From: a virus
IMG/VR virus record: IMGVR_UViG_3300029258_004252
Coordinates: 1-44,830 of that record
DNA: 44,830 bases
Strand: one strand, 5' to 3'
Shown here: in pieces, positions 17,382-43,465 of the stretch
How the letters are laid out: each line of letters opens with the position of its first letter
Position numbering within the stretch: position 1 is the stretch's first letter
Program-made: the position numbers and the translations under genes
The notes under the pieces: generated by a model
Database searches by the model: none
What the model saw: the letters and a program-made list of their open reading frames with translations, nothing else
Told to the model about the DNA's origin: nothing

Positions 17382-17393
17382 AAAGGATGACAT

Positions 17394-18224: not shown

Positions 18225-18238
18225 CCAGGAGAAGTTTC

Positions 18239-19198
18239 ATGATAATAAAGAACGATTTGTTATTCAACTTAGAAAGCCCTGAAGAAGAACGCTACCTCTC
18301 GGGTAATCTAATATTTGATTTCGCAGATTCCTCAAACATTCCAAATACACCGTGTATAGTAAATAAAACCAACTGGAATCGTGAAACGAATAATATCTAT
18401 GTGATCTGCCCATTCCCAAGATATAGGGGCTTGGAACCTAATGCAGAAAACCTCTATAAGAGAAAACATATCGTTGTAGACGACGAGCCTGTGTTTGTGG
18501 CTAAAAACAGAATCGTTACCATAGAAGAATTTGACTTCGGTAAATTTAAATCTCTTAAGGAATATTTGCGGTATAACGACGTTATAACTTTCCAAATCTG
18601 GAAATGTCCTCAATCAATGTTAGGCTACGATAGGAAGAAGTGTTTCAAAGCAACTGGTAGAAGCGTGGTGGAATTCCTTGTAGGCCTTAACGATAACATA
18701 AAGCCGCTATACAGATATAATTCTGTAGAGTATATTGGATACACAAGTGAGCGGTCATCGCGCAATGACCTACTACATCTTGTCACTTTCTTCAACTTGA
18801 AGAGGTGCATACCATCTCTAAATCCTAAAAGAATCGACGGCGTAGCTTTAATATACAGAGCTGTAAAAGAAGCAGCAACAAAGCAGGCCGGCAAACTGCA
18901 CTGTGCCGCTCAAATGGCAATCATATTTACCAACTATCTCGACAACAGATTTGTTATAGATGGTATCAAGCTATCTGCTCCGCAAGAAATTAACGAAAAA
19001 CATATACGTGATTTAATGAAAATCACAGAAGCAGATTCAGTTTTCGTCGGCGAAGAGAAGAAAAAAAGCGGTAGCAAAAAAAAGTCTGAAAAGGGAGGAA
19101 TAAAGTACCACGTGACTTCAGGCAGCGGCAATTATAGTTTAAATTGGCCGTCGTTTTATACAGCAACCGCAGCAACCACCACAACAACATCGTGGTAA
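18239..19198 (+). CDS. Hypothetical protein between two class II glutaminases (319 aa)
   Basis: Not recognised. AGGAG at 18227-18231 selects ATG 18239. The protein appears alpha/beta, with a Lys/Ser-rich linker (residues about 267-285) and a low-complexity Thr/Ala tail (TATAATTTTTSW). Its fixed position between the two glutaminase genes suggests a part in the same amide-forming system, as scaffold or acceptor; this is inference from context. Confidence 0.55.
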   Translation: MIIKNDLLFNLESPEEERYLSGNLIFDFADSSNIPNTPCIVNKTNWNRETNNIYVICPFPRYRGLEPNAENLYKRKHIVVDDEPVFVAKNRIVTIEEFDFGKFKSLKEYLRYNDVITFQIWKCPQSMLGYDRKKCFKATGRSVVEFLVGLNDNIKPLYRYNSVEYIGYTSERSSRNDLLHLVTFFNLKRCIPSLNPKRIDGVALIYRAVKEAATKQAGKLHCAAQMAIIFTNYLDNRFVIDGIKLSAPQEINEKHIRDLMKITEADSVFVGEEKKKSGSKKKSEKGGIKYHVTSGSGNYSLNWPSFYTATAATTTTTSW

Positions 19199-19225
19199 TA
19201 AACAACCATATGGAGGGTTAAACAA

Positions 19226-21115
19226 ATGTGTGGAATCGTAGGCGTATTAGCATTTGGCGAATCAAAAGATTATAAAGAAGAAAAAATCCGACAAGAAGCT
19301 ATGATGTTCTTCGGCACAGAACTGCTTCTGTTGACTCAGAGTAGAGGTAAAGATGCCACCGGCGTTGCCAGTCTATTCGCTGATGGAAAATTCTATGGCT
19401 TCAAAATGGGTGTCCCGTCCCCAGATTTCGTCTCTAGATATGGCGGGAAGAATACGGATTACGATGGCTTCCTGAAAATATGGAGAGAAAACTTCATGAA
19501 AAGGAAGAAGGTAGCAAAGAGCTTTATAGGACACTGCAGGAAAACATCTGTAGGTCTAGCCAGCGACAATGCTAATAATCATCCGGTAGTTGTGGGCGAC
19601 ACGATTATAGGCGTTCATAATGGGACGCTGGAAAACCATAATATAATTTTCCAAATGTTGAAGTGCAAAAGAGATGGCGATGTGGATAGCGAAGCTATTA
19701 TGCAGCTGATCTATTACTTAACAAAGGAAGGCACCGAGCCTTTTACTTTAGACGTCCTAAAAGAAACCTGCATGAGATTGCAGGGGTCTTATAGCTGTAT
19801 AGTATTAAACAGTAACAGCCCTAATCAAGTTGCTACGTTCAGGGACAGCAGGCCAGCAGAGGGCGCTATCATAAGGCCACTGAACATAGCGCTGATTGCC
19901 TCTGATGACGACTTCTTGAAGACCGTACTGTTTCGCTATCAGAAAATGGCCAGGTTGTACAATTCAAGTGTTAAATTTCCCCCATTGGGTAAAGATGATG
20001 TTGAGATGAAGATTTTGCCGGACGATCACGCTTACGTGTGGGATTTATCTAAACCCATAGAAAAAGATACCGATTTGAAGGACCTATACGTTTCTGAAAG
20101 AATACCGCGCACTGGCAAGCTTTGGGGAAAGAAAACCACGTCTTACAATAACGGTTATAACTACAACAATAACTGGAACGCTAGAAACAACAGGAAAACC
20201 GAAGTAAGCGCCAAGCCCGCAACAGGTAACAAAGCTGTAGTTGACGACGACGATGATGATGGGCAGTATGAAGAAGCTGCATCTGCACGGGTATGGAGCA
20301 AAAAGTCTAAGTCGTACGAAAAAAAAGAAGGACTAGCGGAGTCAAAACAAATCGGACCTGTAGAAATCGACATCAGTCCCTTCGGCAGAACCGAATCCAT
20401 TAATGACGAGTATGAGAATGTAGAAAACATACTGCTTAGATTGAAGGACCGGGAAGAGCCTAAAAAAAAGGAAATCGATGTAGCTCCTTTGACGAAAGTG
20501 CCTGTTGGAGAGATTAACGATTTGATTGGTAATCCTGTTAAAACCGTAGTAGTTCCTTATCCTACGTTAGCTAAAGTAGGTGGAGATGAAGCGGTGGAAA
20601 AAGAAATGGACAAATCACCTTTTACTAAAGTAGACCCTGAAGCTATGAAGAAAGCCAGTGAAATGGCTGACGCTCTCCCCAAATATGAGAATGATGATGA
20701 AGTTATAGCTGCTTTAGACGCCAATCCTAAGACCATAAAAGAGGCTCCGCTCTATGCTTTGACTAACAGAATTGTTAAGCAGGTATTTGTAGAAGCATTT
20801 GCCATGGGATACACAAAGAGGAAAAGGGAGGAAACTGTAGGGAAAGTGCAGAAGAGAGACAGTAATTTTATAGCTTTAAAGGAAGCCGCAATAGTTCTCG
20901 CGAATGCTGTCGGCGAAGAAAACATTAAATATCGCCCAAGAAAAGATATGATTGACAAAGCTCTCATTAGAATATTAAATGGAGGAGGAGCTAAAAATCT
21001 ATCTATAGATGCATTGACAAACATATTCTCTGCCGGCGATTTCAAGCAGCATCCTCTTCTGCGCCACTTAAAACTCTCAGTTATGTCTGTTAAAGGTGCA
21101 AACAATGAGGATTAA
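19226..21115 (+). CDS. Class II glutamine amidotransferase with a long C-terminal extension
   Basis: 629 residues. It starts MCGIVGVLAF (Cys2), with RGKDATG, IGHCRKTSVG, NNHPVV, GVHNGTLENH and DVDSEAIM, so the glutaminase active site is complete. The domain ends near residue 290. The remaining 340 residues are an Asn-rich linker, an aspartate run near residue 340, two repeats of the type D-x-[SA]-P-[FL]-[TG]-[KR] (DISPFGR, DVAPLTK, DKSPFTK), then a helical C-terminal domain from about residue 490. The extension has no synthetase motif; the repeated short peptides look like docking sites. GGAGGG serves as SD. Confidence 0.8.
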   Translation: MCGIVGVLAFGESKDYKEEKIRQEAMMFFGTELLLLTQSRGKDATGVASLFADGKFYGFKMGVPSPDFVSRYGGKNTDYDGFLKIWRENFMKRKKVAKSFIGHCRKTSVGLASDNANNHPVVVGDTIIGVHNGTLENHNIIFQMLKCKRDGDVDSEAIMQLIYYLTKEGTEPFTLDVLKETCMRLQGSYSCIVLNSNSPNQVATFRDSRPAEGAIIRPLNIALIASDDDFLKTVLFRYQKMARLYNSSVKFPPLGKDDVEMKILPDDHAYVWDLSKPIEKDTDLKDLYVSERIPRTGKLWGKKTTSYNNGYNYNNNWNARNNRKTEVSAKPATGNKAVVDDDDDDGQYEEAASARVWSKKSKSYEKKEGLAESKQIGPVEIDISPFGRTESINDEYENVENILLRLKDREEPKKKEIDVAPLTKVPVGEINDLIGNPVKTVVVPYPTLAKVGGDEAVEKEMDKSPFTKVDPEAMKKASEMADALPKYENDDEVIAALDANPKTIKEAPLYALTNRIVKQVFVEAFAMGYTKRKREETVGKVQKRDSNFIALKEAAIVLANAVGEENIKYRPRKDMIDKALIRILNGGGAKNLSIDALTNIFSAGDFKQHPLLRHLKLSVMSVKGANNED

Positions 21116-21117
21116 AA

Positions 21118-22479
21118 ATGGCCCGACAAAAATTGATTCTGGTAGCTTCTGAAAGCATGGACAGCAATAAGAAGCCAGATAGAGATGAAAATTCACTAGT
21201 TAGAATGTCGTCCATAGTTAGAAAAAATATGAACTTTAACGAAGATAGCGTCGAGTTATGTCCGGCCGGCGCTTCGTCTGAGAATCAAGCTATCAGAGCT
21301 AGGATGTTGAAAATATTCAAGGCATTCTCAGCTGACATAAAAATGGCAAAGAAGATGGTCGATGCAGGTGAGCTGACTAAAGCAGAATTGAAACGCGTTG
21401 GTTTCGTCACTACAAAGACGCTTAATGCTATAAACGGTGGGGGAGGACGTAAGAAGAACAAAAATATATGGGTGTCTAACTCGATAAAGAATACTGTTCT
21501 GGGCTCAGATCCCGAATTCCTTTTGTTCGACAGAGAAACTGAAAATGTCATAAGAGCTTATAATGTTCTGCAAACTGCAGGTCCACTTGGCAGTGATGGC
21601 GCTATGGCAGAGGTTAGGCCAACCCCATCTACCTCAACAGAAGGTATTGTGTCTAACATTAAAAAGATATTTAAAAATGACAAATCTGTTAAATACATAG
21701 AACAATATAAATGGATGTCAGCATGTTACCACAGAGATAATTCTAGAGATTATCCTGTTGGCGGACATATACATATCGGAACTCCGGCGAAGATAGCTAA
21801 TTTGAACAAGAAAACCAAAGAGGCTTTCTTTATTGTACTGAATAAAATCTTAGACGAGTTGCTGGCTATACCATTAACAAAACTAGATGGTGCGGAGAAT
21901 GGGCACAGAAGAAGAGCTAATTGCCAAGTATGTCCGACTGGACACCATGGTTATGGGTTCTTTGGTGAGATGAGAATGCCACACGGCCGTCTTGAACATA
22001 GAACTTTAAGTGGTATGTGGTTGGTGCATCCATCAGTTGCAAAAGCCGTCTTCGGTACTACTAAAGCTATAGTTGACGAAGTTTTCAAACTTGTCTCTAG
22101 CAAAAACTTTAACTCTAAATACATGTGCCTTTATGCGAAAGACAATGAATCTGGAGATGATTACAGAATCATTAAGCATATGTTCAAACCCAATTTCGAC
22201 GGTTGGAAAAATGTACCCCTCGCAAAAGAAGTAGAGTGTATTAAATCTTCAAGCGAGATGATAAAAATATTAAATGATTCTAATCCATCGTATGTTAGTT
22301 CCGCTTACTTGAAAAAGTGGCTTTCGAGAATGAAAAATTTCTCAACCTACAAGAACAATGGTAAATACGTTAGGGGTTTATACGAAATTTTGAGTATCTC
22401 TGCTAAAGATCTGCAAAGTTGGGATAGGGAGATCCAAAGAAATTGGTTGGGAAATAAAAAATTCATGGTGGATTTATAA
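21118..22479 (+). CDS. phiEco32-type COOH-NH2 ligase, second complete paralogue
   Basis: 453 residues. LGSDPEFLLFD (Gly129, Asp131, Glu133), MAEVRPTPS, YPVGGHIHIG (His217, His219) and GRLEHRTLSGMWLVHPSV give the full amidoligase motif set. It differs from the 14,498 gene in having an N-terminal helical domain of about 125 residues. TGHHGYGFFGEMRMPHG adds several conserved-looking His residues near the active site. It starts two bases after the glutaminase stop, which supports a functional couple: the glutaminase gives ammonia, the ligase forms the amide. Confidence 0.8.
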   Translation: MARQKLILVASESMDSNKKPDRDENSLVRMSSIVRKNMNFNEDSVELCPAGASSENQAIRARMLKIFKAFSADIKMAKKMVDAGELTKAELKRVGFVTTKTLNAINGGGGRKKNKNIWVSNSIKNTVLGSDPEFLLFDRETENVIRAYNVLQTAGPLGSDGAMAEVRPTPSTSTEGIVSNIKKIFKNDKSVKYIEQYKWMSACYHRDNSRDYPVGGHIHIGTPAKIANLNKKTKEAFFIVLNKILDELLAIPLTKLDGAENGHRRRANCQVCPTGHHGYGFFGEMRMPHGRLEHRTLSGMWLVHPSVAKAVFGTTKAIVDEVFKLVSSKNFNSKYMCLYAKDNESGDDYRIIKHMFKPNFDGWKNVPLAKEVECIKSSSEMIKILNDSNPSYVSSAYLKKWLSRMKNFSTYKNNGKYVRGLYEILSISAKDLQSWDREIQRNWLGNKKFMVDL

Positions 22480-22532
22480 AGATGAATATTTTCAAAAAAA
22501 TATGCAAAAAAATCAAAGGAGGACTTGACAAA

Positions 22533-23612
22533 ATGGGAAAAGATGTTTATGTTTACTATAGTGGCCCGACAGATACGACTGGTAAGAATATCGCTGAAGC
22601 CTTAAAGGCTAGCCATGGTAAGAAGAAACCAGCAACGTCGAAGAAACTTACTGTAATCTGCTGGGGGTGTAAGACCAAGGAGAAGACAAACATGGGTAAT
22701 CATGTTGTCCTCAATCACCCGGACAATATTAAAAATAACCGGAATAAGTTCAAAACGCTGCAAACTCTTAATAAGGCAAATGTCAATGTCGCTCCGTTTA
22801 TAGAAGCCGGTAAAGTTATAGCGGCCATAGATAGCACAAGTTCTCCTATCAAATTACCTCTGATCGGGCGGACAAACTATCACCAAGGCGGCAAAGGACT
22901 TTGGACGTGCCTTACGAAGACTATGGTGCAAGCAGCTATCAACGAAGGTGCCCAGTACTTCCAGAATTTTATGGATGTAAAAACTGAATACAGACTTCAT
23001 GTATTTCAGGGCGGTATCATCAATGCTCAGAAGAAAGTTCCTCGGAAGAATATGGAAGGAGCCTTCGTCGAGCAATATGGCGACAGAATTAAGCACAATG
23101 CTGAAAAAGCTGGCAAGAAGATTGACGAAGCAACGATGCAGCTGGTGCTTTCGGACGTCGGGAAGAGGACTTTGGCAAATCCTGATCAAATTGTCAAGTC
23201 TAATACCAGGGGCTGGAAGTTCTCCCAGGTTAAAACTGTACCTGCTGCTCTTGAGAAAATAGCGATCGACGCTGTTAAAGCTATAGGATTAGACTTCGGC
23301 GCTGTAGATTGTTGCATCCTGAGTAATAATGATGCCGCCATTATCGAAGTAAATACTGGACCAGGTTTGTCAGGTTCGTCATTTGATGCTTACATTGCAG
23401 CTTTCAAAGAGTTTCTTAAACCCAAGAAAACTGTCAGTGCCGCATCTAAACCGAAGACTGCGGCTGCCGGTGCAAGTGCTGCACCTTCTGCTGGCGGGAA
23501 GAAGAAAGTCGATCCTAACGCTCTAAGAAACATAGCTGACATGCTAGAGCACGCAGATGATTCAGAAACCGAAGCTATTAACAGTGTAATCAGCAAGATG
23601 TTCGGTAGTTAA
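22533..23612 (+). CDS. ATP-grasp ligase, phage amidoligase-associated
   Basis: AAAGGAGG at 22515-22522 favours ATG 22533 (359 aa); ATG 22482 is in frame and also possible (376 aa). The N-terminus has a small zinc-finger-like segment (CWGCKTK...NHVVLNH). The ATP-grasp core shows LQTLNKANVNVAPF, FMDVKTEYRLHVFQGG, GLDFGAVDCC (Asp254) and AAIIEVNTGPGLSG (Glu272, Asn274), the metal-binding end of the RimK/D-Ala-D-Ala ligase-like fold. Such enzymes activate a carboxylate as acyl phosphate for attack by an amine. The tail is Ala/Lys rich. A related protein is at 30,484-31,278. Confidence 0.78.
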   Translation: MGKDVYVYYSGPTDTTGKNIAEALKASHGKKKPATSKKLTVICWGCKTKEKTNMGNHVVLNHPDNIKNNRNKFKTLQTLNKANVNVAPFIEAGKVIAAIDSTSSPIKLPLIGRTNYHQGGKGLWTCLTKTMVQAAINEGAQYFQNFMDVKTEYRLHVFQGGIINAQKKVPRKNMEGAFVEQYGDRIKHNAEKAGKKIDEATMQLVLSDVGKRTLANPDQIVKSNTRGWKFSQVKTVPAALEKIAIDAVKAIGLDFGAVDCCILSNNDAAIIEVNTGPGLSGSSFDAYIAAFKEFLKPKKTVSAASKPKTAAAGASAAPSAGGKKKVDPNALRNIADMLEHADDSETEAINSVISKMFGS

Positions 23613-25823: not shown

Positions 25824-26648
25824 ATGGGCAAAGGTAAATTTAAATATGATGTTGTAAAGGGAAGCTCTGTAGGAGCATACGAGGAGTTACCGAAGTATTT
25901 TCTGGCAGATACGCCAGAAGAGGCAGAAGAACTTTATAAGGATTACTATACCCTTCTAAACAACCTGTCATATACCTATTCCATTTCAACTAAAATTGAT
26001 AAAAGCGATTTGTTTGGCGAAGCTTTAATTGGTCTTGCAAGGGCGAATAGAGATTTTGATTCCAAAAGGAGTGAAAATTTCAAAACTTTCGCCATTTATA
26101 AGATAAAAGGTGCGCTCAACGAATATGTGAGAAAGAATTCAGGAGCCGTTGTTATGCCAGCATACGTGAGAAGTGCCAACAGACATATAACATCATTGAA
26201 AGACATCTTTGAGATGTATAATCTAGAGCTTAAGCACTTGTACAAGGCATTCGAAATTGGAGAAATAGATATGTCTTGGGCCAACGACTGTCCGCTGAAA
26301 GACAAAATACTTGATTTATTCAACAAAGTAGTGAAGGCCGCTGAGAGAGCTCAGATAACAATGAAGGAGCTGGTGTCAAGAGCAGAATATGCTCCAGTAA
26401 ATGTTAGGTACGATGATTATGCTGACGCTGACGAAATAGTACAGCAAAAAGAACATCGCCTTGAAATGGCACTCACTATAGAAAAATTCAAAAAACACCT
26501 TACTCCCGTGGAAATTTCCATCTGTGAAGGAATAATGGAAGACAGGAGTTATGAAGAAATAGCCAAACAGTTTAATCGAACTGCTCCTTGGATCAATTAC
26601 AAACTGTCAAAAATGAAGGAGAAACTGGAAGAACAAATAGGGAGATAA
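25824..26648 (+). CDS. Sigma-70-family sigma factor, phage-encoded
   Basis: 274 residues from ATG 25824 (TTG 25821 adds one). A weak GAGG sits three bases upstream; a strong AAGGAGGT lies 23 bases upstream and is oddly far. DKSDLFGEALIGLARANRDFD...FKTFAIYKIKGALNEYVRK (residues 59-104) is sigma region 2. LTPVEISICEGIMEDRSYEEIAKQFNRTAPWINYKLSKMKEKL (from about residue 224), here split only for description, is the region 4 helix-turn-helix. Region 1.1 is absent. It could redirect the host polymerase, or serve the phage's own two-barrel polymerase. The end leaves two bases before the next start. Confidence 0.78.
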   Translation: MGKGKFKYDVVKGSSVGAYEELPKYFLADTPEEAEELYKDYYTLLNNLSYTYSISTKIDKSDLFGEALIGLARANRDFDSKRSENFKTFAIYKIKGALNEYVRKNSGAVVMPAYVRSANRHITSLKDIFEMYNLELKHLYKAFEIGEIDMSWANDCPLKDKILDLFNKVVKAAERAQITMKELVSRAEYAPVNVRYDDYADADEIVQQKEHRLEMALTIEKFKKHLTPVEISICEGIMEDRSYEEIAKQFNRTAPWINYKLSKMKEKLEEQIGR

Positions 26649-26650
26649 AA

Positions 26651-28060
26651 TTGAACACTATTAAAGTATTACAACGACTCGACAAAGAGCCGTCAGTCAA
26701 CGTGTACTTAGTGGGTGGATTTGTAAGAGATTTTCTCCGTGGGGAGAAGAATGATGATCTCGACGTGGTGGTAAAAGGAATGACCATCAAAAAGTTAAAA
26801 GCTTTCTTATCAAAATACGGTAAGGTTAAGCTTGTAGAGTTGTCAAAAGTAAAAGACAGCTTTGCCGTAAAAATTTTGCTATTTAGCGCTAGCAATGATG
26901 ATCTGGTAGCGCAGATCAAGTTACCTAGCAGAGGCAAAAAGCAAATACAAGATCCTAACAATACACTCAGACAAGACGCGGCTCATAGAGACTTTACAAT
27001 CAACGCTATGTACCTTCCCGTTAATGCAAAAGAACGGGATGAAATAATAGATTTCCATGGCGGCAAAACGGATATAGGTGCAAAATGCATAAGAGCTGTG
27101 GGTGAACCTATAGAAAGAATGCAGGAACATCCTATTAGACTCTTACGTGCAATTTCACTGGCAGCTAGAACTGGCTTTACAATAAATGAAAATGTTCTGT
27201 TTGCCATAAAGCATTGTGCACATTTGTTAAAGAATGTGCATGTTGACTCAATAAGAAAGGAGTTTAACCATATATTATTATGTGATAAGCCTTCGAAGTA
27301 TCTGAAGCTAATGCATATATTAGACTTGCTAGATATAATGCTGCCAGAGTTAACTAATTGTATTAACGTTACTCAGGAGAAAAAACACCACAAATGGGAT
27401 GTATTTCACCATTGTGTTTATACTTGCGACCATGTAGATTGTGAGTTGAATCTGAGACTTGCCGGCCTTCTACATGACGTTGGCAAACCAGATACAAGAA
27501 AGGTTATCAAGGGAAAAGGTATTACATTCCACAAACATGAGATGGTAGGTGCTAAGATAGCAAAGAAAGCTTTAACGAGACTTGGCTATGATAATAATAC
27601 GAAAAATCAAATAACCAAGCTGGTAAGGCTACATATGTACCACTACACTCATGAATATAGCGATAATGCTATAAGAAGATTTATAGCTAAAGCAGGTATC
27701 ACTGAAAAAGACTTGGATGACATAAGCAACTTTCCTTTGTTCAAGTTAAGAGCTGGCGAGCGACTAGGTAATGGCTTTAAGAAAGTACCAGTCACTGCGC
27801 GCCAGGAGGACTTTGAGAAACGCATTGTTAAAGTCTACAAGGAGACTACAGCCTTCGGAGTCAACGATTTGGTCCTGAAGGGTAAAGATATAATGGAGAT
27901 CTTCGAGTTGAAGCAGTCTCCTTTAGTCGGTAGAGTCAAGAAACATCTGTTGTCTAAAGTTTTATCGGACCAAAAACTAAATAATCGAGTTGACTTGATA
28001 AAACTTGCCGCAACATATATAAACAAATATAAAAAATTTAACAAAAACAAGAAAAAATAA
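26651..28060 (+). CDS. cca: CCA-adding enzyme / tRNA nucleotidyltransferase with HD domain
   Basis: 469 residues from TTG 26651, chosen because GGAG at 26641-26644 is six bases upstream; an in-frame ATG at 26588 lies inside the sigma gene. The head has YLVGGFVRDFLRGEKNDDLDV (GG 22-23, R26-D27, Asp36 and Asp38), then RRDFT-like AHRDFTINAMY and the neck GEPIERMQEHPIRLLRAISLAA. The C-terminal part holds LAGLLHDVGKPDT (His275-Asp276) and FHKHEMVGAKIAKKAL, a metal-dependent HD phosphohydrolase. It should build or repair tRNA 3' CCA ends. The phage tRNA-Leu downstream lacks an encoded CCA, which gives the enzyme an obvious substrate. Confidence 0.85.
   Translation: MNTIKVLQRLDKEPSVNVYLVGGFVRDFLRGEKNDDLDVVVKGMTIKKLKAFLSKYGKVKLVELSKVKDSFAVKILLFSASNDDLVAQIKLPSRGKKQIQDPNNTLRQDAAHRDFTINAMYLPVNAKERDEIIDFHGGKTDIGAKCIRAVGEPIERMQEHPIRLLRAISLAARTGFTINENVLFAIKHCAHLLKNVHVDSIRKEFNHILLCDKPSKYLKLMHILDLLDIMLPELTNCINVTQEKKHHKWDVFHHCVYTCDHVDCELNLRLAGLLHDVGKPDTRKVIKGKGITFHKHEMVGAKIAKKALTRLGYDNNTKNQITKLVRLHMYHYTHEYSDNAIRRFIAKAGITEKDLDDISNFPLFKLRAGERLGNGFKKVPVTARQEDFEKRIVKVYKETTAFGVNDLVLKGKDIMEIFELKQSPLVGRVKKHLLSKVLSDQKLNNRVDLIKLAATYINKYKKFNKNKKK
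27995..28023 (+). promoter_or_regulatory. Sigma-70-type promoter in front of the large structured RNA
   Basis: TTGATA at 27995-28000, a 17-base spacer, and TATAAA at 28018-28023. Each box has one mismatch and the spacing is ideal. It lies inside the last codons of the CCA enzyme gene and would start transcription near 28030, just before the non-coding region. Confidence 0.5.
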
Positions 28061-31278: not shown

Positions 31279-31349
31279 AATGTTCCCAGAAGAATACAAA
31301 AATAATATGATTGAAAGGGTTTTAAAACTGAAAGAATGTGAAAGAGATG

Positions 31350-32135
31350 ATGGACTTAGAGAAATTGAGAGATACAGTGTTGAAGCGGCAGACGGAACTG
31401 TTTCCGATGAACTCCGTCTTGTGCGGATTCCGGGGGAGCATAGCACATAATACTTATGTACCTAGTGATGACCCAAACAGCATTGACGACGTAGATATAA
31501 TATGCGTCTATACAGCCATTCCAGAACATTATATTGGTTTAGGCCGTAATAAAGACTATGGTAAGGGCAAACAAATACAAATCGACGAGTTCGATTGTGT
31601 TCACTATGAATTAAAACACTTCATAAACTTACTTCTGAAATCTAACCCAACTACTACACTATTACTATGGTTGGACAACAGGCATTACCTTAAAATAACT
31701 GAAGTTGGCCAGAAGTTAATAGACAACCGCAGATTATTTTCTTCTAAGAAATTCTATAGAGCCTTTACCGAATACGCCAAAGACCAGCTTAGGAAAATGA
31801 AAACTAATACCTATGAAGGTTATATGGGCGTAAAACGTAAAGCACTTGTAGATAAATTTGGCTATGATTGCAAAAATGCTGCCCATTCTATAAGACTTCT
31901 GAGGATGGCAAAAGAATTTATGGTTACAGGAGAGCTAAAGATCTTCAGAGATGAAGATGCTGACGACATTGTACAAATAAAAACCGGACAACGGACGTTT
32001 GAAGATGTCAAAGCTTTGGCAAAAGAAGAGGTAGGAAAAGCCGAAGAAGCATACAAAAGATCTAAACTCCCTGAAGAGCCAGCGTATGATGCCATAGAAA
32101 AAATCCTAATGGAAATAACTAAAGGCATCATATAA
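31350..32135 (+). CDS. RlaP-like nucleotidyltransferase (DNA polymerase beta superfamily)
   Basis: 261 residues from ATG 31350; ATG 31347 and GTG 31338 are also in frame, and no strong SD decides. FRGSIAHNTY (Gly29-Ser30) followed by SIDDVDIICVY (Asp47, Asp49) is the nucleotidyltransferase signature, and the later YEGYMGVKRKALVDKFGYDCKNAAHSIRLLRMAKEF region matches the PF10127 family found beside RNA ligases. It probably modifies or repairs RNA ends. A 60-codon open frame at 31268-31450 in another phase overlaps its start; I cannot exclude that the true N-terminus involves a frameshift there. Confidence 0.75.
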   Translation: MDLEKLRDTVLKRQTELFPMNSVLCGFRGSIAHNTYVPSDDPNSIDDVDIICVYTAIPEHYIGLGRNKDYGKGKQIQIDEFDCVHYELKHFINLLLKSNPTTTLLLWLDNRHYLKITEVGQKLIDNRRLFSSKKFYRAFTEYAKDQLRKMKTNTYEGYMGVKRKALVDKFGYDCKNAAHSIRLLRMAKEFMVTGELKIFRDEDADDIVQIKTGQRTFEDVKALAKEEVGKAEEAYKRSKLPEEPAYDAIEKILMEITKGII

Positions 32136-32881: not shown

Positions 32882-33445
32882 ATGTCAGATATTTTACTTA
32901 TAGTTGACATGTTAAACGACTTCGCCCACGAAGACGGCGCTCTGTTCTTCCCAAGAGCCAAAGAAATTATTCCTCACATACAAGAGCGTTTAAAAGAATA
33001 TAGAATGAGGAGAATATTATACAAAGGTCTGGATAAATACAACGTCGTCTACGCATGTGATAGACATGAACCTCATGACAAAGAATTTGAGAGATTCCCG
33101 AAACATGCTATTGCTAACACATGGGGCGCTAGGGTTGTAGATGAGCTTGCACCTATTAATCCACTCGTGGAGGAGAAGATAGTGGATAAAACAAGGTTCG
33201 ATGCTTTCTTTGGCACCCCGTTAGCTGCCATATTAGAACAGCTGAGACCGCCGGTAGTTGAAGTAGTTGGTGTATGTACTTCCATATGTATCATGGATAC
33301 TGTAGCCGGCCTAGTTGCTAGAGATTACAAGGTCCACGTACCCGAACACTGCGTTGCAGACCTTGATAATGATGCTCACGAATACGCCCTGAATAGAATG
33401 GAGGGAATATATGGGGCAATAGTTTACACACCCCACAACATGTAA
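32882..33445 (+). CDS. pncA: Nicotinamidase (isochorismatase-like hydrolase)
   Basis: 187 residues. LIVDMLNDFAHEDGAL (Asp9), VDKTRFDAFFGTPL (Lys103) and GVCTSICIMDT (Cys136) give the Asp-Lys-Cys triad; CDRHEPHD (Asp60, His62) is the metal site. Isochorismatase-family members vary, but the neighbours pncB and nadE make nicotinamide the likely substrate: nicotinamide to nicotinate plus ammonia. The length fits bacterial PncA. The stop is 11 bases before the next gene. Confidence 0.82.
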   Translation: MSDILLIVDMLNDFAHEDGALFFPRAKEIIPHIQERLKEYRMRRILYKGLDKYNVVYACDRHEPHDKEFERFPKHAIANTWGARVVDELAPINPLVEEKIVDKTRFDAFFGTPLAAILEQLRPPVVEVVGVCTSICIMDTVAGLVARDYKVHVPEHCVADLDNDAHEYALNRMEGIYGAIVYTPHNM

Positions 33446-33456
33446 CAGGAGGCGTA

Positions 33457-34662
33457 ATGCCAATCATTAAAAGTTTACTCGACACAGATCAGTATATTTT
33501 TACTATGGCACAAGCTGCTTTGCACCAGTGTCCAGGTGCTGTAGCTAAATTTAAATTTAAGTGTAGAAATGGGTCCGCTGTTCCTAAAGGAATTGAGCGG
33601 GAGAAGTTCATGGCCCGCTTAAATGAGGAAATAGACTATCTATGCGCCCTCAGACTGCGAAATTTGGAGCTTTCTTACTTATCCTATATAAGATACTTCA
33701 AAAAGGATTATATTGAGCACCTGAGGCTTCTGAGGCTCAACAGAGACTATATTCACGCTTATATAGACAAGGATGATGAGCTGCAAATTGAAATTGAGGG
33801 ACCTTTGTTCTTCGTGATATGGTTTGAAGTGCCGGTTCTCGCTATAGTAAGTGAGTTGAACTCTGAATTTAACAATATAATGGGCTTTGAATATATTAAC
33901 ACTGGAAAGAAATTACTTGGAGGAAAAGTAAACTACCTTCGCAGTAATTTACATAAAGATTCTAAATTTAAATTTGCTGATTTCGGTACCAGAAGGAGAC
34001 ATTCCTACGAATGGCACAAATACGTACTTGAATATCTGAAAGCTGAAGCAAAGCATTGGCTTGTAGGTACTTCAAATGTACATTTTGCAATGGAGCTAGG
34101 CTTACAGCCAATAGGAACAATGGCACACTTATGGTTCCAAGCATTTCAGAGAATGGATTTTCAGCTTGCGAACAGCCAAAAAGCTGCCCTAGATGCGTGG
34201 GTTAAAGAGTATCAGGGTGATCTTGGTATTGCCTTATCAGACATAGGTGGTTTCGAGTGGTTCCTTAAAAACTTCAACCTATTCTATGCAAAACTCTTTG
34301 ACGGATGCAGGCATGATTCAGGCGATCCTTTCTGGTGGGTTGAAAAACTTATAGCTCATTATGAAAAACTTGGGATAAATCCTTCAACAAAGACTGCTGT
34401 ATTCAGCGACGGCTTAACCTTTCCTTTAATGGTGAAGTTGTATCAGACGTACAATCAGAGAATAAAAACATCGTTCGGCGTTGGGACTAATCTCACTAAT
34501 GACATGGGTTATAAAGCCTTACAGATAGTGATTAAAATGGTCGAATGTAACGGTGGTCCTGTGTCAAAACGTTCCGATAGTCGGGGGAAAGGTATGTGTG
34601 AAGATCCTGATTTTGATATTTACTTTGCCAAAGTTATTAAAGAGGAAATCTCTAAAGCATAA
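33457..34662 (+). CDS. pncB: Nicotinate phosphoribosyltransferase
   Basis: 401 residues, as expected for PncB. LLDTDQYIFTMAQAALHQCP at the N-terminus, KFKFKCRN, the phosphorylatable His224 in GTMAHLWFQ, CRHDSGDPFWW (residues 285-293), KTAVFSDGLTF and SFGVGTNLTND are the family signatures. It makes nicotinate mononucleotide from nicotinate, PRPP and usually ATP. AGGAGG precedes the ATG. It is immediately downstream of the nicotinamidase gene, the next pathway step. Confidence 0.9.
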   Translation: MPIIKSLLDTDQYIFTMAQAALHQCPGAVAKFKFKCRNGSAVPKGIEREKFMARLNEEIDYLCALRLRNLELSYLSYIRYFKKDYIEHLRLLRLNRDYIHAYIDKDDELQIEIEGPLFFVIWFEVPVLAIVSELNSEFNNIMGFEYINTGKKLLGGKVNYLRSNLHKDSKFKFADFGTRRRHSYEWHKYVLEYLKAEAKHWLVGTSNVHFAMELGLQPIGTMAHLWFQAFQRMDFQLANSQKAALDAWVKEYQGDLGIALSDIGGFEWFLKNFNLFYAKLFDGCRHDSGDPFWWVEKLIAHYEKLGINPSTKTAVFSDGLTFPLMVKLYQTYNQRIKTSFGVGTNLTNDMGYKALQIVIKMVECNGGPVSKRSDSRGKGMCEDPDFDIYFAKVIKEEISKA

Positions 34663-34674
34663 AGGAGGCTTAGC

Positions 34675-36576
34675 GTGAGACATTTATTGAGACTGTTTAA
34701 AGCAGTGAAAATTAGCTCTAAGGGCCAGAGGATGCCCAACAAAGAGATTTTAACGAAGACTGTAATGAATGGGTTCATCTTCTCCCCCGAAGTTATTTAC
34801 AACTACTCAAACTATGAGTTAGATGTCATAGCTGACACAGTGATTGAGGAACTCGGTCTGTCGTTAAAAGAAATGAACAATGCATTTCATAAGTCTTGGG
34901 AAAAAGTCAGAGATGCCAGCATGGTCCAGCTGGTCCTGGAACAGATGATTCACTACATTACAACCTACGGTTTCGAGGGCCTCGGTATTTATAATGAGGA
35001 TTCCGTCTACATTCCAAACGAAAAGTTGGACCTGCCGGATATCAATACCGACAAAGTTATCCTGAATGTCATCAAAGGGTATACTACCGAAGAGATCAAA
35101 GAAAAAGTTATGGAGCTGCTGAAGTCCGGGATAGCTTTGAAGGAAGACACAGTTAAAGATGTAGTTGAAACTGCAAAGCAAGTAGGTATAAATAATAGTA
35201 ATGTAGATGACATTAAGAACAGAGAGGTGCTTATAGCTTTATGTGACCACCTTGACCTGTTTCCTCAGAATCCAACAGAGTTCTTAAGGTACGTTATCTA
35301 TAAGACTACTGGCAGAACCTTGCTCATAAAGGATGCTGCTACTATAGCTATGTTAAAGGAAAAATCTAACGATGTAGCGTACCCTCTGTTCAATAAATAT
35401 GGGAAGCATTATGGCCTCCATAGGTTAGCCAGTATATTCTTCAGGTTTAAACCGCTCTTCTTGGCTCTGAAATCCGAAGATGCTATGAAGCCTGTCATAA
35501 ATAAAATAAGAAAGCTTGCGACCAAACATCACCGGCCTATGAAGGAAGACTACCTTAATACTATTACTGCTATAGTTAAGAATGGCCTTGATTTGGATCT
35601 GAAAGAGCTGGAAGATAGGCTTGGCGAAGTTAATGCCTTCAGGAAGATCAGGCTTGCTTACGCTTTGAATTATCGGACCTTGAAAGAGGCTGATTCTATA
35701 TTATACAGAATCAGAAATGGAAAAGGGTTTGCTTTGCCGTTTGAATTTGGCGGAAAAGGTAGAGCTGAGGAAGCACTTAACGTAGTTCTCGAATCGGTTG
35801 TTAAAGATGTTAAGAGAAACGTTGCTGGGAAGAAGGTGTTCGTACCGGGTTACATTGACTATGCCCTGCCTGCTACTGAAAAACAATTTACAGGCAACCT
35901 TCCCTCAGGTACATGCGTATCTGTTGATAAAGATATAATCTTTGGTATCCACTGGCATAATGTCGGAGGACATAGGGTTGACTTGGACTTGTCTCTGATG
36001 AACGTCACAGTCGGTAAAATCGGCTGGGACGGAAGTTACCGTTCCCATGACAAGGGTATTCTGTTCTCCGGTGATATGACTGATGCAAAAGGGAAACTTG
36101 GCGCATCCGAGCTGTTCTATGCAAAAGAACGGCAGAATCAGAGTTTTATTATGCTCGTAAATTACTACAACTACAGAGCTGATATCCCTGTTCCTTTAAG
36201 TATCATCGTGGGCAAAGATAACATTGATAAAAGAGAGTTCAAACACAACTATATGGTCCATCCTGATAAAATCGTCACTGCCACCAAGACGAAAATAGAT
36301 AGGCGGCAGAGAATGCTCGGTCTGTTAGTCTCAGGTGAAAATGGTAATAAGTTTTACTTCTCGGAGGCGGATCTGGGTGCTGGTATCACAGCCAGGAATA
36401 GATCTTATATTGAGGATACGAGGAAGTATCTCACTCAGTATAGCTCTAACGCTATAAGCCTAAATGATGTGCTAGTCTTAGCCGATACTGAATTCGTTGA
36501 TGATGAAGACGAATGTGATGTCAATCTATCACCTGTGAATATCGAAAAAGATACGATAATACAACTTCTAACATAG
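34675..36576 (+). CDS. Large hypothetical protein inside the NAD salvage cluster (633 aa)
   Basis: AAAGGAGG at 34661-34668 selects GTG 34675. I do not recognise the family. Residues 1-370 are helical. From about 390 on there is a beta-rich part with FGIHWHNVGGHRVDLDLSL, KIGWDGSYRS, GILFSGDMTDAKGK and ASELFYA; the VDLDLS ... SGDMTDA ... SE order is faintly like TerD-type domains, but I would not assign it. No HxGH nucleotidylyltransferase motif is visible, so it does not look like the missing NadD. It could use NAD, sense it, or be unrelated cargo. Confidence 0.6.
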   Translation: MRHLLRLFKAVKISSKGQRMPNKEILTKTVMNGFIFSPEVIYNYSNYELDVIADTVIEELGLSLKEMNNAFHKSWEKVRDASMVQLVLEQMIHYITTYGFEGLGIYNEDSVYIPNEKLDLPDINTDKVILNVIKGYTTEEIKEKVMELLKSGIALKEDTVKDVVETAKQVGINNSNVDDIKNREVLIALCDHLDLFPQNPTEFLRYVIYKTTGRTLLIKDAATIAMLKEKSNDVAYPLFNKYGKHYGLHRLASIFFRFKPLFLALKSEDAMKPVINKIRKLATKHHRPMKEDYLNTITAIVKNGLDLDLKELEDRLGEVNAFRKIRLAYALNYRTLKEADSILYRIRNGKGFALPFEFGGKGRAEEALNVVLESVVKDVKRNVAGKKVFVPGYIDYALPATEKQFTGNLPSGTCVSVDKDIIFGIHWHNVGGHRVDLDLSLMNVTVGKIGWDGSYRSHDKGILFSGDMTDAKGKLGASELFYAKERQNQSFIMLVNYYNYRADIPVPLSIIVGKDNIDKREFKHNYMVHPDKIVTATKTKIDRRQRMLGLLVSGENGNKFYFSEADLGAGITARNRSYIEDTRKYLTQYSSNAISLNDVLVLADTEFVDDEDECDVNLSPVNIEKDTIIQLLT

Positions 36577-36584
36577 TTCTATCT

Positions 36585-36687
36585 GGCAAAAAGAGTTCCT
36601 ACTCAAACCAATGCAGCGCCGAAAGGCGCTATTATATTACTCTTCGCTAGATATCAAAAAATTAATAGGGCAAAGGGAGTTCCTACT
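36585..36687 (+). repeat. Direct repeat pair before the tRNA-Gly
   Basis: GGCAAAAAGAGTTCCTACT (36585-36603) and GGCAAAGGGAGTTCCTACT (36669-36687) match at 17 of 19 positions, 84 bases apart. The second copy sits in a stem formed by GGGC and GGAGT with ACTCC and GCCC near 36707-36722. The repeats frame the terminator and could be promoter elements or RNA-processing sites. Confidence 0.45.
36615..36638 (+). terminator. Rho-independent terminator after the 633-aa gene
   Basis: AGCGCC, a GAAA tetraloop and GGCGCT (36615-36630) form a six-pair GC-rich hairpin followed by ATTATATT. It is 39 bases after the stop codon. The tail has only a few Ts in a row, so termination may be partial. Confidence 0.6.
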
Positions 36688-36735
36688 AAAAATCATTCTG
36701 GGATAAAATACTCCTCGCCCACTAACTTCATACGA

Positions 36736-36852
36736 GGGGGAGTAGCTCAGTGGTAGAGCACCTGTCTCACTACTCTCCGCTGTTGATGCATAGAGGGTTC
36801 CTCTAAACATCCAAACAGGCGGTCGTGGGTTCAATCCCCACCTTCCCCTCCA
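36736..36852 (+). tRNA. tRNA-Gly with a 42-base insertion in the anticodon loop
   Basis: Acceptor GGGGGAG/CTTCCCC, D arm GCTC-AGTGGTA-GAGC, anticodon stem CCTGT/ACAGG (36761-36765/36815-36819), five-base variable loop CGGTC, T arm GTGGG-TTCAATC-CCCAC, discriminator T and encoded CCA (36850-36852) are all perfect. The anticodon loop, however, is 49 bases (36766-36814). Removing 42 bases (36768-36809) leaves CTTCCAA, the normal tRNA-Gly(UCC) loop; shifting the cut by one gives CCC, also Gly. U73 fits Gly. The insertion contains a TAGAGG-GTT-CCTCTA hairpin (36791-36805). It is far too short for a group I intron. Confidence 0.8.
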
Positions 36853-36864
36853 AAGGAGATATAA

Positions 36865-37728
36865 ATGACTAGAATAAGCACAAACTACCAGGAGATGCAT
36901 GACAACATAGTTAAAGCGGGAGTTGGTTATCTTGAGAAACACGATAAGGTCAAAAATTTGATCATTGGACTGTCCGGCGGAATAGACAGCACTCTGACTG
37001 CTGTATTAGCTAGGGACATCTGTGATGCAACTGGTAAACATAGACTAATAGGCTTTAGCATACCAACGGCATCCAATAAGAAAAGCGAAGTTGAGTTGGC
37101 TGCTAAGGTCGGTAGAAAATTCTGCCATGAATTTAAACAAGTTAACTGGTTCAAGTGGCTTTTCCTCAAAGATAAGGTTCCCTTCAGAAAATATGAAAGG
37201 AAAGTCCGCAGCGGAAATATGAAAGCAAGAGCTAGAATGATGTATCTATACCACATGGCTCATAAATATAACGGCCTTGTGCTTTCCACGGACAACCTTA
37301 CTGAATATCATTTGGGTTTCTGGACGCTGCATGGAGACGTAGGCGACCTCGGTCTTATTCAGAACCTGTGGAAAACTGAAGCTTACGGACTAGCCAACTT
37401 TATAAGTAGCCAGTTGTTCAAATGGTTTGCTGAGGGTAACTACGTTGACTGGTTGGAATTCGGCGTTAAATCCAAAATTATATCTGAAGTCATTGTAGCT
37501 GTACCAACGGATGGTTTGGGTATAACCGAAAGTGACTTCGACCAGTTAGGAGTAAGAAATTACAAAGAAGCAGATAAGATTTTGGTTGAATATATTTATG
37601 ATAAAAATACAAAATGGGCGGATCACCCCATAGCCGTAAGATATAGGGAGAATGCCTTCAAGCGTACAAATCCGCATAACATTCCCAGGGAAGTTGTACT
37701 TCCTGGACCGAAGCCGGTCAATTTGTAA
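36865..37728 (+). CDS. nadE: Ammonia-dependent NAD synthetase
   Basis: 287 residues. IIGLSGGIDSTLTAV (residues 33-47) is the PP-loop that binds ATP; LSTDNLTEYHLGFWTLHGDVGDLGLI is the conserved deamido-NAD site. The length fits the ammonia-only form, without a glutaminase domain; ammonia could come from the phage nicotinamidase or glutaminases. It converts nicotinic acid adenine dinucleotide to NAD. The SD AAAGGAG starts directly after the CCA of the tRNA-Gly. Confidence 0.88.
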   Translation: MTRISTNYQEMHDNIVKAGVGYLEKHDKVKNLIIGLSGGIDSTLTAVLARDICDATGKHRLIGFSIPTASNKKSEVELAAKVGRKFCHEFKQVNWFKWLFLKDKVPFRKYERKVRSGNMKARARMMYLYHMAHKYNGLVLSTDNLTEYHLGFWTLHGDVGDLGLIQNLWKTEAYGLANFISSQLFKWFAEGNYVDWLEFGVKSKIISEVIVAVPTDGLGITESDFDQLGVRNYKEADKILVEYIYDKNTKWADHPIAVRYRENAFKRTNPHNIPREVVLPGPKPVNL

Positions 37729-40217: not shown

Positions 40218-41138
40218 CTAACATACTTCTCCTAATTTTCTACCTAGTACCACTCTGTTTTTTAAATTATCAGGGCCAGATAGAACCGGCTCTTGCGGCC
40301 AACCTGCAGAAGAAAGTACATAAACAACATTTTTATGAATATTATTCCAAGACTGAGCAGACTTTCTGCATTCATTAACAAAAGTGTAAGTTAATACTCC
40401 TTGTTTTTTACCTGCAATAATTGTTTCAGAAGAAGTCTGATCATCTCTACAACCAGACAACATCACGTGATTTTGAGTAGCTTTACTACCAAACTTTCTT
40501 TTCTTAACAACTTTATCTTTCATTTTTTCTGCCATTTCTTTCGGCATAGCAATATTTCTATCTATATCTCTTGACATACTACCGGAATGACATGTATCAC
40601 ATATCATAGATAAGAAAGCTCCGGATGGAAGTTTATTAAATATTTTAGCAATATCATCATCTAATAAAGGATTGTTCCAATCAAAATCATGTGTCACTAA
40701 AACCTCATCAAGTTGATCTGCTTCATCTCCAGACACATCTAAAACCTGAGTACCATGTCCAGAATGGTAATAAAATAATTCATCTCCCGCTTTCCTTCCA
40801 GACACCAACCAATTTAAATGTGATAATATATTTTTCTTGATTGCTTGGCTGTCGGTAAGCATTTTAACATTTGCAGCTTTAAATCCACAACATTCTACTA
40901 AAAATTCTTTCATATTAGTAGCATCATTTACACATCCCGACAAATCCATTCCTGGTGTTGCGTATTTATTAATACCAACTACAAGAGCGAATTTAGTATC
41001 CATGTTTTCCTCCTCACTTGGTGTAATAGGGACGTAATTATCATCATCGTCATCATCATCTTTTCTTTTCTTAATGTATATAAGAGCACCGGCCATTGCC
41101 ACCACTCCTAAAACTATAAATATTCCAAAGTCAGGCAT
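40218..41138 (-). CDS. Membrane-anchored caspase-like cysteine peptidase (C14, metacaspase type)
   Basis: 306 residues. One membrane helix (residues about 4-23, IFIVLGVVAMAGALIYI) is followed by an Asp run and then the peptidase: FALVVGINKYATPGMDLSGC, ELFYYHSGHGTQ (His128) and MICDTCHSGS (Cys183, with Asp181), the caspase/metacaspase dyad. DDQTSSE and GVLTYTFVNE are further C14 features. Metacaspases cut after Arg/Lys; the target here is unknown. AGGAGGT precedes the ATG. It lies between Lon and the lysozyme. The anchor and linker place the peptidase domain in the cytoplasm or at the membrane face. Confidence 0.85.
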   Translation of the reverse strand: MPDFGIFIVLGVVAMAGALIYIKKRKDDDDDDDNYVPITPSEEENMDTKFALVVGINKYATPGMDLSGCVNDATNMKEFLVECCGFKAANVKMLTDSQAIKKNILSHLNWLVSGRKAGDELFYYHSGHGTQVLDVSGDEADQLDEVLVTHDFDWNNPLLDDDIAKIFNKLPSGAFLSMICDTCHSGSMSRDIDRNIAMPKEMAEKMKDKVVKKRKFGSKATQNHVMLSGCRDDQTSSETIIAGKKQGVLTYTFVNECRKSAQSWNNIHKNVVYVLSSAGWPQEPVLSGPDNLKNRVVLGRKLGEVC

Positions 41139-41152
41139 GACTTACCTCCTTT

Positions 41153-43465
41153 CTAAAAAGCTATTTTCAAAACTTCAGAAGCAGTTTTCACAAAATGAAA
41201 CTTAATATCCTCCATAATCTCCTTAGGTATATCCTCTAAATCATCTTTATTCCATTTTGGCAAGATGATTTCTTTAGTCCCAGCTCTATGTGCACCTATA
41301 ACCTTTTCTTTAACGCCTCCTACTGGTAATATATCTCCTTTTAAAGTTATTTCACCACTCATAGTTAAATTTTCTTTAACAGATTTGTCATTGAAAAGTG
41401 AAACTAATGCACAGAACAAAGCCACACCGGCTGAAGGGCCATCTTTAGGTGTAGACCCTTCTGGCACATGTATATGAATCACACTTTCTTTAACATTAGG
41501 TAGTTCAATTCCTTCTAAAGTACGCACATAGTCTAAAGCAATGATAGCTGATTCCTGCATTACTTCACCTAATTGTCCTGTTAAAATAATCTCCTCATCA
41601 GACATACCTTTATCAAAAATTGTTGCTTCAATATATCCTACAGTACCACCATTATTACCTACAAATAGAGCTGAACTCATACCTGGAAATAATTTTCTCA
41701 TTTTATTTAATGGAGGTACTTTTTCTCTCCCTAAATACTCTCTTATATTATTTTTCTTTATTGATTCAGATTCTGCTTTTCCCGAAACTATTTTAGTAGC
41801 TACTTTACGACAAGCATTAGCTATTTCTCTTTCTAAATTTCTAACACCCGCTTCAAATGTATAGCTAGTAATAATATCATCTAAAGCTTTATCAGTAAAT
41901 CTAATCTCTTTTGACTTCAACCCATGAGCTTTACGTTGCTTAGGTATTAAAAATTTATTGGCAATATTTATCTTTTCTGGTTGAGTATAACCTGAAAATC
42001 TTATTACCTCCATTCTATCTTTTAAAGCTGGCGGAATTGTTCCAAGAATGTTAGCAGTAGTAATAAACATAACATTAGACAAATCAAAAGGAACATCCAA
42101 ATAATGGTCCGAGAACGAATTATTCTGTTCAGGATCTAAGACTTCTAATAATGCTGACGAAGGATCGCCTCTAAAATCTTTACCTAATTTATCCACCTCA
42201 TCTAACATAAATACTGGATTGTTTGTTCCTACACGTCTTATTCCTTGGATAATTCTTCCAGGTAAAGCACCAACATAAGTTCGTCTATGACCCCTGATCT
42301 CCGCCTCATCTCTCACTCCGCCAAGAGAGATTCTAATGAACTCACGCCCCAAAGCTTCAGCTATAGACCTACCCAATGAAGTTTTACCCGTTCCTGGCGG
42401 GCCGACAAAACATAGGATAGGTCCTTGTGAGTCCTTTTTCAATTTTCTTACGGCAAGATATTCTAAAATCCTTTGCTTAGGTTTTTTCAAACCATAATGA
42501 TCTCGTTCTAAAATATCTTCAGCTTCATTTATATCAAGTCTATCTTCAGTATCTTTTGACCAAGGCAATTCAGTCAAACAATCTAAATATGTAGTTATAA
42601 CCGAACGTTCAGCAGAAGATGGATGAACTCTTTTTAATCTCTTCAATTCTTTTCTAGCTACCTTTTCAGCTTCTTCTGAAAGGATAGCTTCTTCTATTTT
42701 TTGAAGATACTCATCAACTTCATCAAGATCATCCTCCTCATCTTCGCCGAGTTCTTTTTTGATTGCATTAAGTTGCTCTCTTAAATAAAACTTTTTTTGA
42801 TTCTCGGTCATTGATTCTTTAGCCTGTTTAACAATCTTATGGCTAATCTCGAACTCTTCAATTTTAAATGTAATAATATTTATTAATTTTCTCAATCTTT
42901 GTTTAACATCTAATATCTCCAAAAATTCTTGCTTTTCATCTTCCTCTATAGGCAATGAGGAAGCAATCATATCAGCAACTTGACCAGGATTTTTGATATT
43001 TTCTATCATAGTGCCGAACTCTTTTGGTATATCTGAATTAAGATTTATCAATCTTTTAAATAGTCTAACAACAGTTGGCACTAATATCTTGGTTTTCTGC
43101 TCCCAAATATTTCTACTTTTAAGAATATCAATTTCTGCTTTTAACAAATGGTCTTTTACCATAGTATTATATTCAAATCTATGTAGACCCTGCATTGTTA
43201 ATTTTACTTTATCATTAAACTCCTGCATGTCTAAGATTTTAGCTAACACTCCAACCTTAGAAAATTCATCTTTAGAACTTTCCTTTATAGGTCTTAAAAT
43301 ACCTACAATTCTATCTTCCTCTTCTAGTTCTTTTACAAATTCATATATATTATGTACATCATCACTATCGCTCATGATAGGATGTATCATTTTAGGAAAC
43401 AAAATCGGTTCAGAAATCGTTATCACTGGAATCAATTTAGGAAATTCTTTTTTAGAATTTGACAT
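41153..43465 (-). CDS. lon: ATP-dependent Lon protease
   Basis: 770 residues, near full length for LonA (about 780). It has an N-terminal LAN domain (from LIPVITISEPILFPKMIHP), coiled-coil region, AAA+ domain with GPPGTGKTS (Lys361) and VFMLDEVDKLG, and the protease domain with PKDGPSAG (Ser678) and VGGVKEKV (Lys719), the Ser-Lys dyad. All key residues are present. It degrades selected or misfolded proteins using ATP. A full Lon in a phage is unusual; it may remove host regulators or control phage proteins. GAGGTG precedes the ATG. Start, length and motifs agree. Confidence 0.95.
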   Translation of the reverse strand: MSNSKKEFPKLIPVITISEPILFPKMIHPIMSDSDDVHNIYEFVKELEEEDRIVGILRPIKESSKDEFSKVGVLAKILDMQEFNDKVKLTMQGLHRFEYNTMVKDHLLKAEIDILKSRNIWEQKTKILVPTVVRLFKRLINLNSDIPKEFGTMIENIKNPGQVADMIASSLPIEEDEKQEFLEILDVKQRLRKLINIITFKIEEFEISHKIVKQAKESMTENQKKFYLREQLNAIKKELGEDEEDDLDEVDEYLQKIEEAILSEEAEKVARKELKRLKRVHPSSAERSVITTYLDCLTELPWSKDTEDRLDINEAEDILERDHYGLKKPKQRILEYLAVRKLKKDSQGPILCFVGPPGTGKTSLGRSIAEALGREFIRISLGGVRDEAEIRGHRRTYVGALPGRIIQGIRRVGTNNPVFMLDEVDKLGKDFRGDPSSALLEVLDPEQNNSFSDHYLDVPFDLSNVMFITTANILGTIPPALKDRMEVIRFSGYTQPEKINIANKFLIPKQRKAHGLKSKEIRFTDKALDDIITSYTFEAGVRNLEREIANACRKVATKIVSGKAESESIKKNNIREYLGREKVPPLNKMRKLFPGMSSALFVGNNGGTVGYIEATIFDKGMSDEEIILTGQLGEVMQESAIIALDYVRTLEGIELPNVKESVIHIHVPEGSTPKDGPSAGVALFCALVSLFNDKSVKENLTMSGEITLKGDILPVGGVKEKVIGAHRAGTKEIILPKWNKDDLEDIPKEIMEDIKFHFVKTASEVLKIAF

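Follow-up and report, generated by a model that had tools for sequence, protein, structure and literature searches.

A large-phage NAD salvage gene set in which the NadD position appears to have passed to an unrelated TerD-domain gene and a tRNA-like RNA

NADase defences release nicotinamide. Phage gene sets that turn this compound into NAD are ordinary for large phages and have been both published and deposited in GenBank. The huge phage 5-SewaE has a four-gene nicotinamide-to-NAD set (PMC10747093), and the NAD-depletion idea has already been stated for Xanthomonas phage X1 (PMC13384950). Together with the Sinorhizobium phage Phosso, these phages are examples of the pathway in full or almost in full. 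Two surveys (PMC9503650, PMC7824862) name NAD salvage by other enzymes, and the terms nadE, pncA, pncB and nicotinamidase are absent from PMC9503650. A literature search combining phage with nicotinamidase, nicotinate phosphoribosyltransferase and NAD synthetase returned no phage NAD-gene paper, as judged from titles and the beginnings of abstracts.

The stretch of DNA analysed here (the window) is the whole of IMG/VR record IMGVR_UViG_3300029258_004252, which is linear, 44,830 bases long and probably a fragment of a larger phage genome. It encodes a divergent RNA polymerase beta-like protein, a phage helicase and part of a phage primase, in addition to COOH-NH2 ligases and glutamine amidotransferases of phage families. 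Its assignment to a phage is well supported by these non-structural phage genes and by collinearity with the viral record G001; the 1149-aa RNAP-like protein, used as a query against viral contigs, returned no relatives. COOH-NH2 ligases, an ATP-grasp protein and glutamine amidotransferases occur in series (182-1634, 3792-4517 and 14498-23612), an arrangement as for peptide or cell-surface modification. On the minus strand, a caspase-fold protein (40218-41138) adjoins a complete-looking Lon protease (41153-43465). Upstream of the NAD genes lie a CCA-adding/poly(A) polymerase-type protein (26588-28060) and an RlaP-type nucleotidyltransferase (31338-32135), both of them RNA-repair themes in jumbo phages (PMC7824862).

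The NAD genes themselves are three uninterrupted plus-strand open reading frames within 32882-37728, and the original prediction that PncA, PncB and NadE are all intact is thereby confirmed. PncB (33457..34662, 401 aa), a nicotinate phosphoribosyltransferase, scores 412.9 bits against NCBIfam TIGR01514 (cut-off 269.55) and 477.8 bits against NF003704, also over its cut-off, and matches PDB 1yir at E 2.1e-104. The enzyme is PncB-type and not NadV: the PHROG nicotinamide phosphoribosyl transferase family reaches 41.8 bits, TIGR01514 412.9. NadE (36865..37728, 287 aa) is a single-domain NAD synthetase lacking a glutaminase domain; it reaches 121.9 bits against TIGR00552 (cut-off 63.65), and its SGG.DS and GD.GD motifs are invariant or nearly so in an alignment of 15 phage NadE proteins. 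At the level of sequence, both identities are thus certified by family models over cut-off. The first gene of the set (32882..33445, 187 aa) encodes a PncA-like protein of the isochorismatase fold (Pfam PF00857, E 7.6e-35; 121 bits, cut-off 27), which scores 19.3 bits against the nicotinamidase equivalog model of NCBIfam, below its cut-off of 174. Residues D9, D60, H62, H75, K103 and C136 are invariant across six aligned relatives and line up with the nicotinamidase 1ilw; we take D9, K103 and C136 to be the catalytic triad and D60, H62 and H75 the metal ligands of the putative active site. The name PncA is accordingly a putative one, based on the fold, these conserved residues and the place beside PncB. 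The set is split between PncB and NadE by a gene for a 633-aa protein and a tRNA-like RNA, on both of which the original prediction was silent.

No NadD was found in the window, in keeping with the original prediction: the 44.8-kb record contains no match to PF01467, the NadD/NadM/NadR superfamily. The search for nadD beyond the cluster was extended over the whole 44.8-kb record with a profile of five phage NadD proteins, likewise with no match; the same search did recover the NadDs of G001, G006 and G020, all three of which had given rows to the profile. The RlaP-type nucleotidyltransferase was considered as a NadD substitute and rejected, being RlaP-type and far from the NAD genes in G001. 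In the 152-kb record G001 the cluster runs PncA, an ORF that looks by eye like a radical-SAM protein, PncB, NadD and NadE, with a NadD of 202 aa (L001:9400-10008) between PncB and NadE; G002 and G004 give the same matches. An ATP-grasp gene followed by PncA, PncB, NadD and NadE is found in a 234-kb contig (L182) and a 141-kb contig (L099), and in L020 and L100 NadD stands immediately before NadE. These relatives (G001/G002/G004, L182 and L099) share with the window the gene order ATP-grasp, PncA, PncB, NadE; they keep NadD between PncB and NadE and have no 633-aa gene there, whereas in the window the reverse holds. The likeness to G001 takes the form of collinearity over window positions 7642-37728: 23 of the 47 window proteins searched with tblastn have a partner at E<=1e-3, and the partners of those in this stretch stand in the same order except for the RlaP-like gene, which lies beside the NAD set here and at 71.6 kb in G001.

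A tree of NadE proteins (matches at E<1e-40 and 200-380 aa; 104 found, 82 different) pairs the window with L099 (SH-aLRT 89). The group around the window holds the NadD-bearing L001, L182, L100, L020 and L099, as well as L006, whose NadD lies elsewhere in its record, and L009 and L018, which have no NadD nearby; the tree is a quick one, and none of its starred forks is one of those by which the window is grouped. NadD was probably placed between PncB and NadE ancestrally, in the spot now taken by an unrelated cassette. Loss or displacement of NadD in the line of the window is the simplest reading, with modest support, and we infer loss rather than gain.

The record is, however, a 44.8-kb linear fragment, and related records reach 141-234 kb, so that not finding NadD in the window says little about the whole phage. 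An alternative is that NadD is not missing but sits in the unseen part of the genome, having moved when the insert arrived. Genes of this neighbourhood do move, as the RlaP-like gene illustrates, and in G006 NadD is about 12 kb from NadE; against this, the cluster NadD is the sole PF01467 match in the collinear G001 record, and several long records contain the three genes and no PF01467-type protein. We regard a relocated NadD as unlikely, and prefer its loss to the cassette.

Sets of this composition are frequent. Single-protein scans of viral contigs with PncB and with PncA returned no relatives. A PncB alignment search gave 194 places; the best 80 of these 194 were analysed, near-copies included, as loci of at most about 21 kb. 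Among these best 80, all four genes are present in 18 loci and PncA, PncB and NadE without NadD in 29, PncA and NadE being called from profile matches at E<=1e-5, some of them weak. The other combinations among the 80 are PncB only (15), PncA+PncB (7), NadE+PncB (6), NadD+PncB (3) and NadD+NadE+PncB (2). Contigs longer than 100 kb account for 36 of the best 80, and 24 of these 36 have PncA, PncB and NadE near one another; 12 of the 24 match the NadD profile somewhere in the record, seven have only another PF01467 protein and five have no PF01467 protein. NadD is the least regular member of the set, yet half of these long three-gene records have it. One phage record contains two different NadE-like genes (L005:765-2873 and 9905-10786), one of 702 aa.

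Comparable variation was seen in other collections. A NadE search of IMG/VR gave 21 records, of which 17 have a PncB match, 12 an isochorismatase match (11 over cut-off) and eight a PF01467 match; the 405-kb record G015 matches the isochorismatase, PncB and NadE families, while nothing in it matches PF01467 at E<=0.001. Six phage records in GenBank match NadE and/or PncB; all six have a PF01467 protein and five an isochorismatase. The former count argues against NadD-less sets as a rule, with the limit that PF01467 also covers enzymes other than NadD. Among nine PF01467 matches in the IMG/VR records, those of L022 and L026 look by eye to be HldE-type, and those of L028 and L029 to be other nucleotidyltransferases. 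A scan of genome contigs with NadE gave 59 loci, mostly from Bacteroidota MAGs, which shows the kin of this NadE type and not the host. PncA, PncB and NadE stand in a row with no NadD beside them in four of these 59 (L270, L287, L292 and L297), all Bacteroidota contigs with the phage-like NadE type. The frequency of PncA/PncB/NadE sets with no adjoining NadD means that a missing NadD weighs less as a sign of a broken pathway, and it makes the dependence of such phages on host NadD directly testable.

In combination, the case for a deamidating (Preiss-Handler) route from nicotinamide to NAD is strong as far as gene content can tell, because relatives carry NadD in the same cluster. PncA would convert nicotinamide to nicotinate and PncB nicotinate to NaMN; host NadD would then form NaAD, from which NadE, with ammonia, would produce NAD. 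NadD occurs in nearly all bacteria, whose own NAD synthesis requires it, and the host's own enzyme is the most likely agent of the step from NaMN to NaAD. Still, host NadE is as universal as host NadD, and host supply alone therefore does not explain why NadE was kept and NadD was not. The original prediction, that NAD could be made from nicotinamide if NaMN were adenylylated by a NadD from outside, stands in its core, given three intact enzymes, no NadD and relatives with NadD in the same cluster; the set is commoner than it implied.

A different order of the last two steps would follow if NadE were an NMN synthetase, converting NaMN to NMN, with a host NadM/NadR-type enzyme adenylylating last, as happens in Francisella. 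For the phage NadE profile, the top hit in the PDB is 3fiu (95.0 bits), which we take to be the Francisella NMN synthetase. The NadE homologue of Francisella has been described as an NMN synthetase (PMC3376133). The next PDB matches lie within 3 bits, however (93.9 and 92.3), a single-sequence search puts 5kha first, and close relatives pair the same NadE with a NadD-type partner, which fits NaAD as the substrate; we consider an NMN synthetase highly improbable. The preferred reading is a salvage set of a large tailed phage, completed by host NadD, the phage's own NadD having been lost to an unrelated cassette, and we hold it, taken as a whole, with moderate confidence. According to this reading, NadD would have stood between PncB and NadE in an ancestor and would have been replaced by the 633-aa TerD-domain gene together with its linked tRNA-like RNA.

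The 633-aa protein (34675..36576, plus strand), encoded at the NadD spot of the relatives, has a helical N-terminal part and a C-terminal TerD-like domain. Its AF2 model has a mean pLDDT of 84.5, and in this model the C-terminal part is TerD-like (3ibz: Foldseek E 3.9e-5; VIA Z 11.4). In IMG/VR 25 relatives were found (L031-L055), and a match to NAD_synthase, the NadE family, is present in 0/25 of their records; the insert family is therefore not tied to NAD. The protein was also considered as an adenylyltransferase or a member of the NAD set, and rejected on its TerD-like fold and the same 0/25 count. The helical part aligns weakly with the Ro60 proteins 2nvo, 9nep and 9l5y. For the whole protein against 2nvo a VIA Z of 5.8 was obtained (rmsd 5.5, 231 aligned), and for the N-terminal part alone against the phage Ro60 9l5y, by its title a solved phage Ro60, a Z of 5.9 (rmsd 7.1, 192 aligned), all Ro60 Z values being below the tool's trust level for helical proteins. 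No Pfam TROVE match was found in the 633-aa protein, hhalign to a TROVE-looking protein of L001 was negative, and Foldseek with the N-terminal part alone gave no match under E 0.001. By eye, the syntenic relative L001 has a TROVE/vWA Ro60-type protein upstream of its NAD genes (L001:3346-4731).

The RNA downstream of this gene has a structure of its own. A tRNA-like gene (36736..36852, plus strand) whose anticodon loop holds a 42-nt insert is recognized by the Rfam tRNA model (58.1 bits) and by ARAGORN with introns allowed. One copy of a structured RNA element lies before it (36631..36692, plus strand; E 1e-10 with the covariance model R1) and a second inside it (36764-36810, plus strand; E 2.3e-7), both of them seeds of R1. 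The element consists of an outer stem of six pairs and an inner stem of three, with invariant GCA and GUUCCU. In an alignment of 20 copies, pairing at the two stems reaches 88.9% of cells and is 48.5% or lower after a slide of one to three columns. In the covariation test, shuffles were not exceeded by two of the five measures (both-side changes, 99/500; further pair types, 335/500). Of 26 sources, made up of 25 loci and the window, 22 have a match to R1 at E<=0.1, always on the strand of the gene and within 615 bp, and these include 11 of the 15 loci that contributed no seed copy to R1. L051, L053 and L055 have no R1 match at E<=1, and L033 has one only at 0.12. A control of 90 of 282 other loci (1.75 Mb) gave a single R1 match, with E 0.88. 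A first regular expression for the element showed no enrichment (2.4 per 10 kb near the 633-aa gene versus 2.6 elsewhere), and one that required the stem matched 10/25 of the 633-aa loci versus 5/282 others; only this stem-requiring expression and R1 separated the 633-aa loci from the rest. An element copy inside the loop insert of the tRNA-like gene was found in the window, L034, L038, L047 and L050; these genes have inserts of 24-43 nt and are missed by standard ARAGORN settings. In L044 (7330-8000) seven consecutive element copies alternate with tRNA half sequences; these reach 36.8 of 69 bits against Rfam YrlA, below the gathering score.

The insert is the more unusual part of the interval than the NAD genes. 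We tentatively read it as a phage Ro/Y-RNA-type ribonucleoprotein cassette with its own RNA element, which here would have displaced NadD. The protein would be Ro60-like, with a TerD domain in place of the usual C-terminal domain; the element would occur in arrays upstream of its gene and also, in several phages, inside a tRNA-like anticodon loop. During infection the cassette may work as a decoy for tRNA or as a particle for RNA quality control. A Listeria phage transcriptome paper (PMC12282133) suggests an Rsr-like protein accompanied by abundant putative Y RNAs, and TROVE proteins are mentioned in jumbo phages (PMC7824862). With its link to a structured RNA in 22 of 26 sources, the protein family offers a concrete starting point in the search for phage Ro/Y-RNA-type particles.

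Given NadD, the salvage set could return nicotinamide to NAD at the cost of ATP, PRPP and ammonia, and any benefit would come as NAD for replication or as recovery after NADase action. NARP1, another phage NAD-rebuilding pathway, counters NAD-depleting systems (PMC12774641), which by analogy makes the counter-defence role of the original prediction plausible for a sister pathway. The genes are explained equally well by a need for NAD in phage growth. That the set meets the everyday NAD needs of a large phage (NAD-using ligase, redox, RNA repair), with no special anti-defence role, is a real possibility, if somewhat short of probable: a use of NAD by phages for replication and RNA repair has been argued (PMC7824862), the set is widespread in large phages, and RlaP-like and CCA-adding-type genes lie upstream of it, whereas the example of NARP1 speaks against a role in supply alone.

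Compared with the described systems, the window resembles 5-SewaE (PMC10747093) in being from a large phage with enzymes leading from nicotinamide to NAD; the four genes of that phage are said to cover the conversion, and the window has three. NARP1 (PMC12774641) and the NadV-NadM/NadR pathways (PMC9503650) are, like the window, cases of phage-encoded NAD rebuilding from nicotinamide. The enzymes are different, however: NARP1 uses Adps and Namat, families other than those of the three window enzymes, and the NadV pathways combine NadV with NadM or NadR, in contrast to the PncB-type enzyme found here. Phage X1 (PMC13384950) shares pncB and nadE with the window and, unlike it, also has nadM, nadD and NAMPT, while pncA is absent from the text of the paper. 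In the cultured, complete phage Phosso (PV764938), PncB, NadE and an isochorismatase-family hydrolase are clustered as in the window, but the Phosso cluster includes a nicotinamide-nucleotide adenylyltransferase and that of the window does not.
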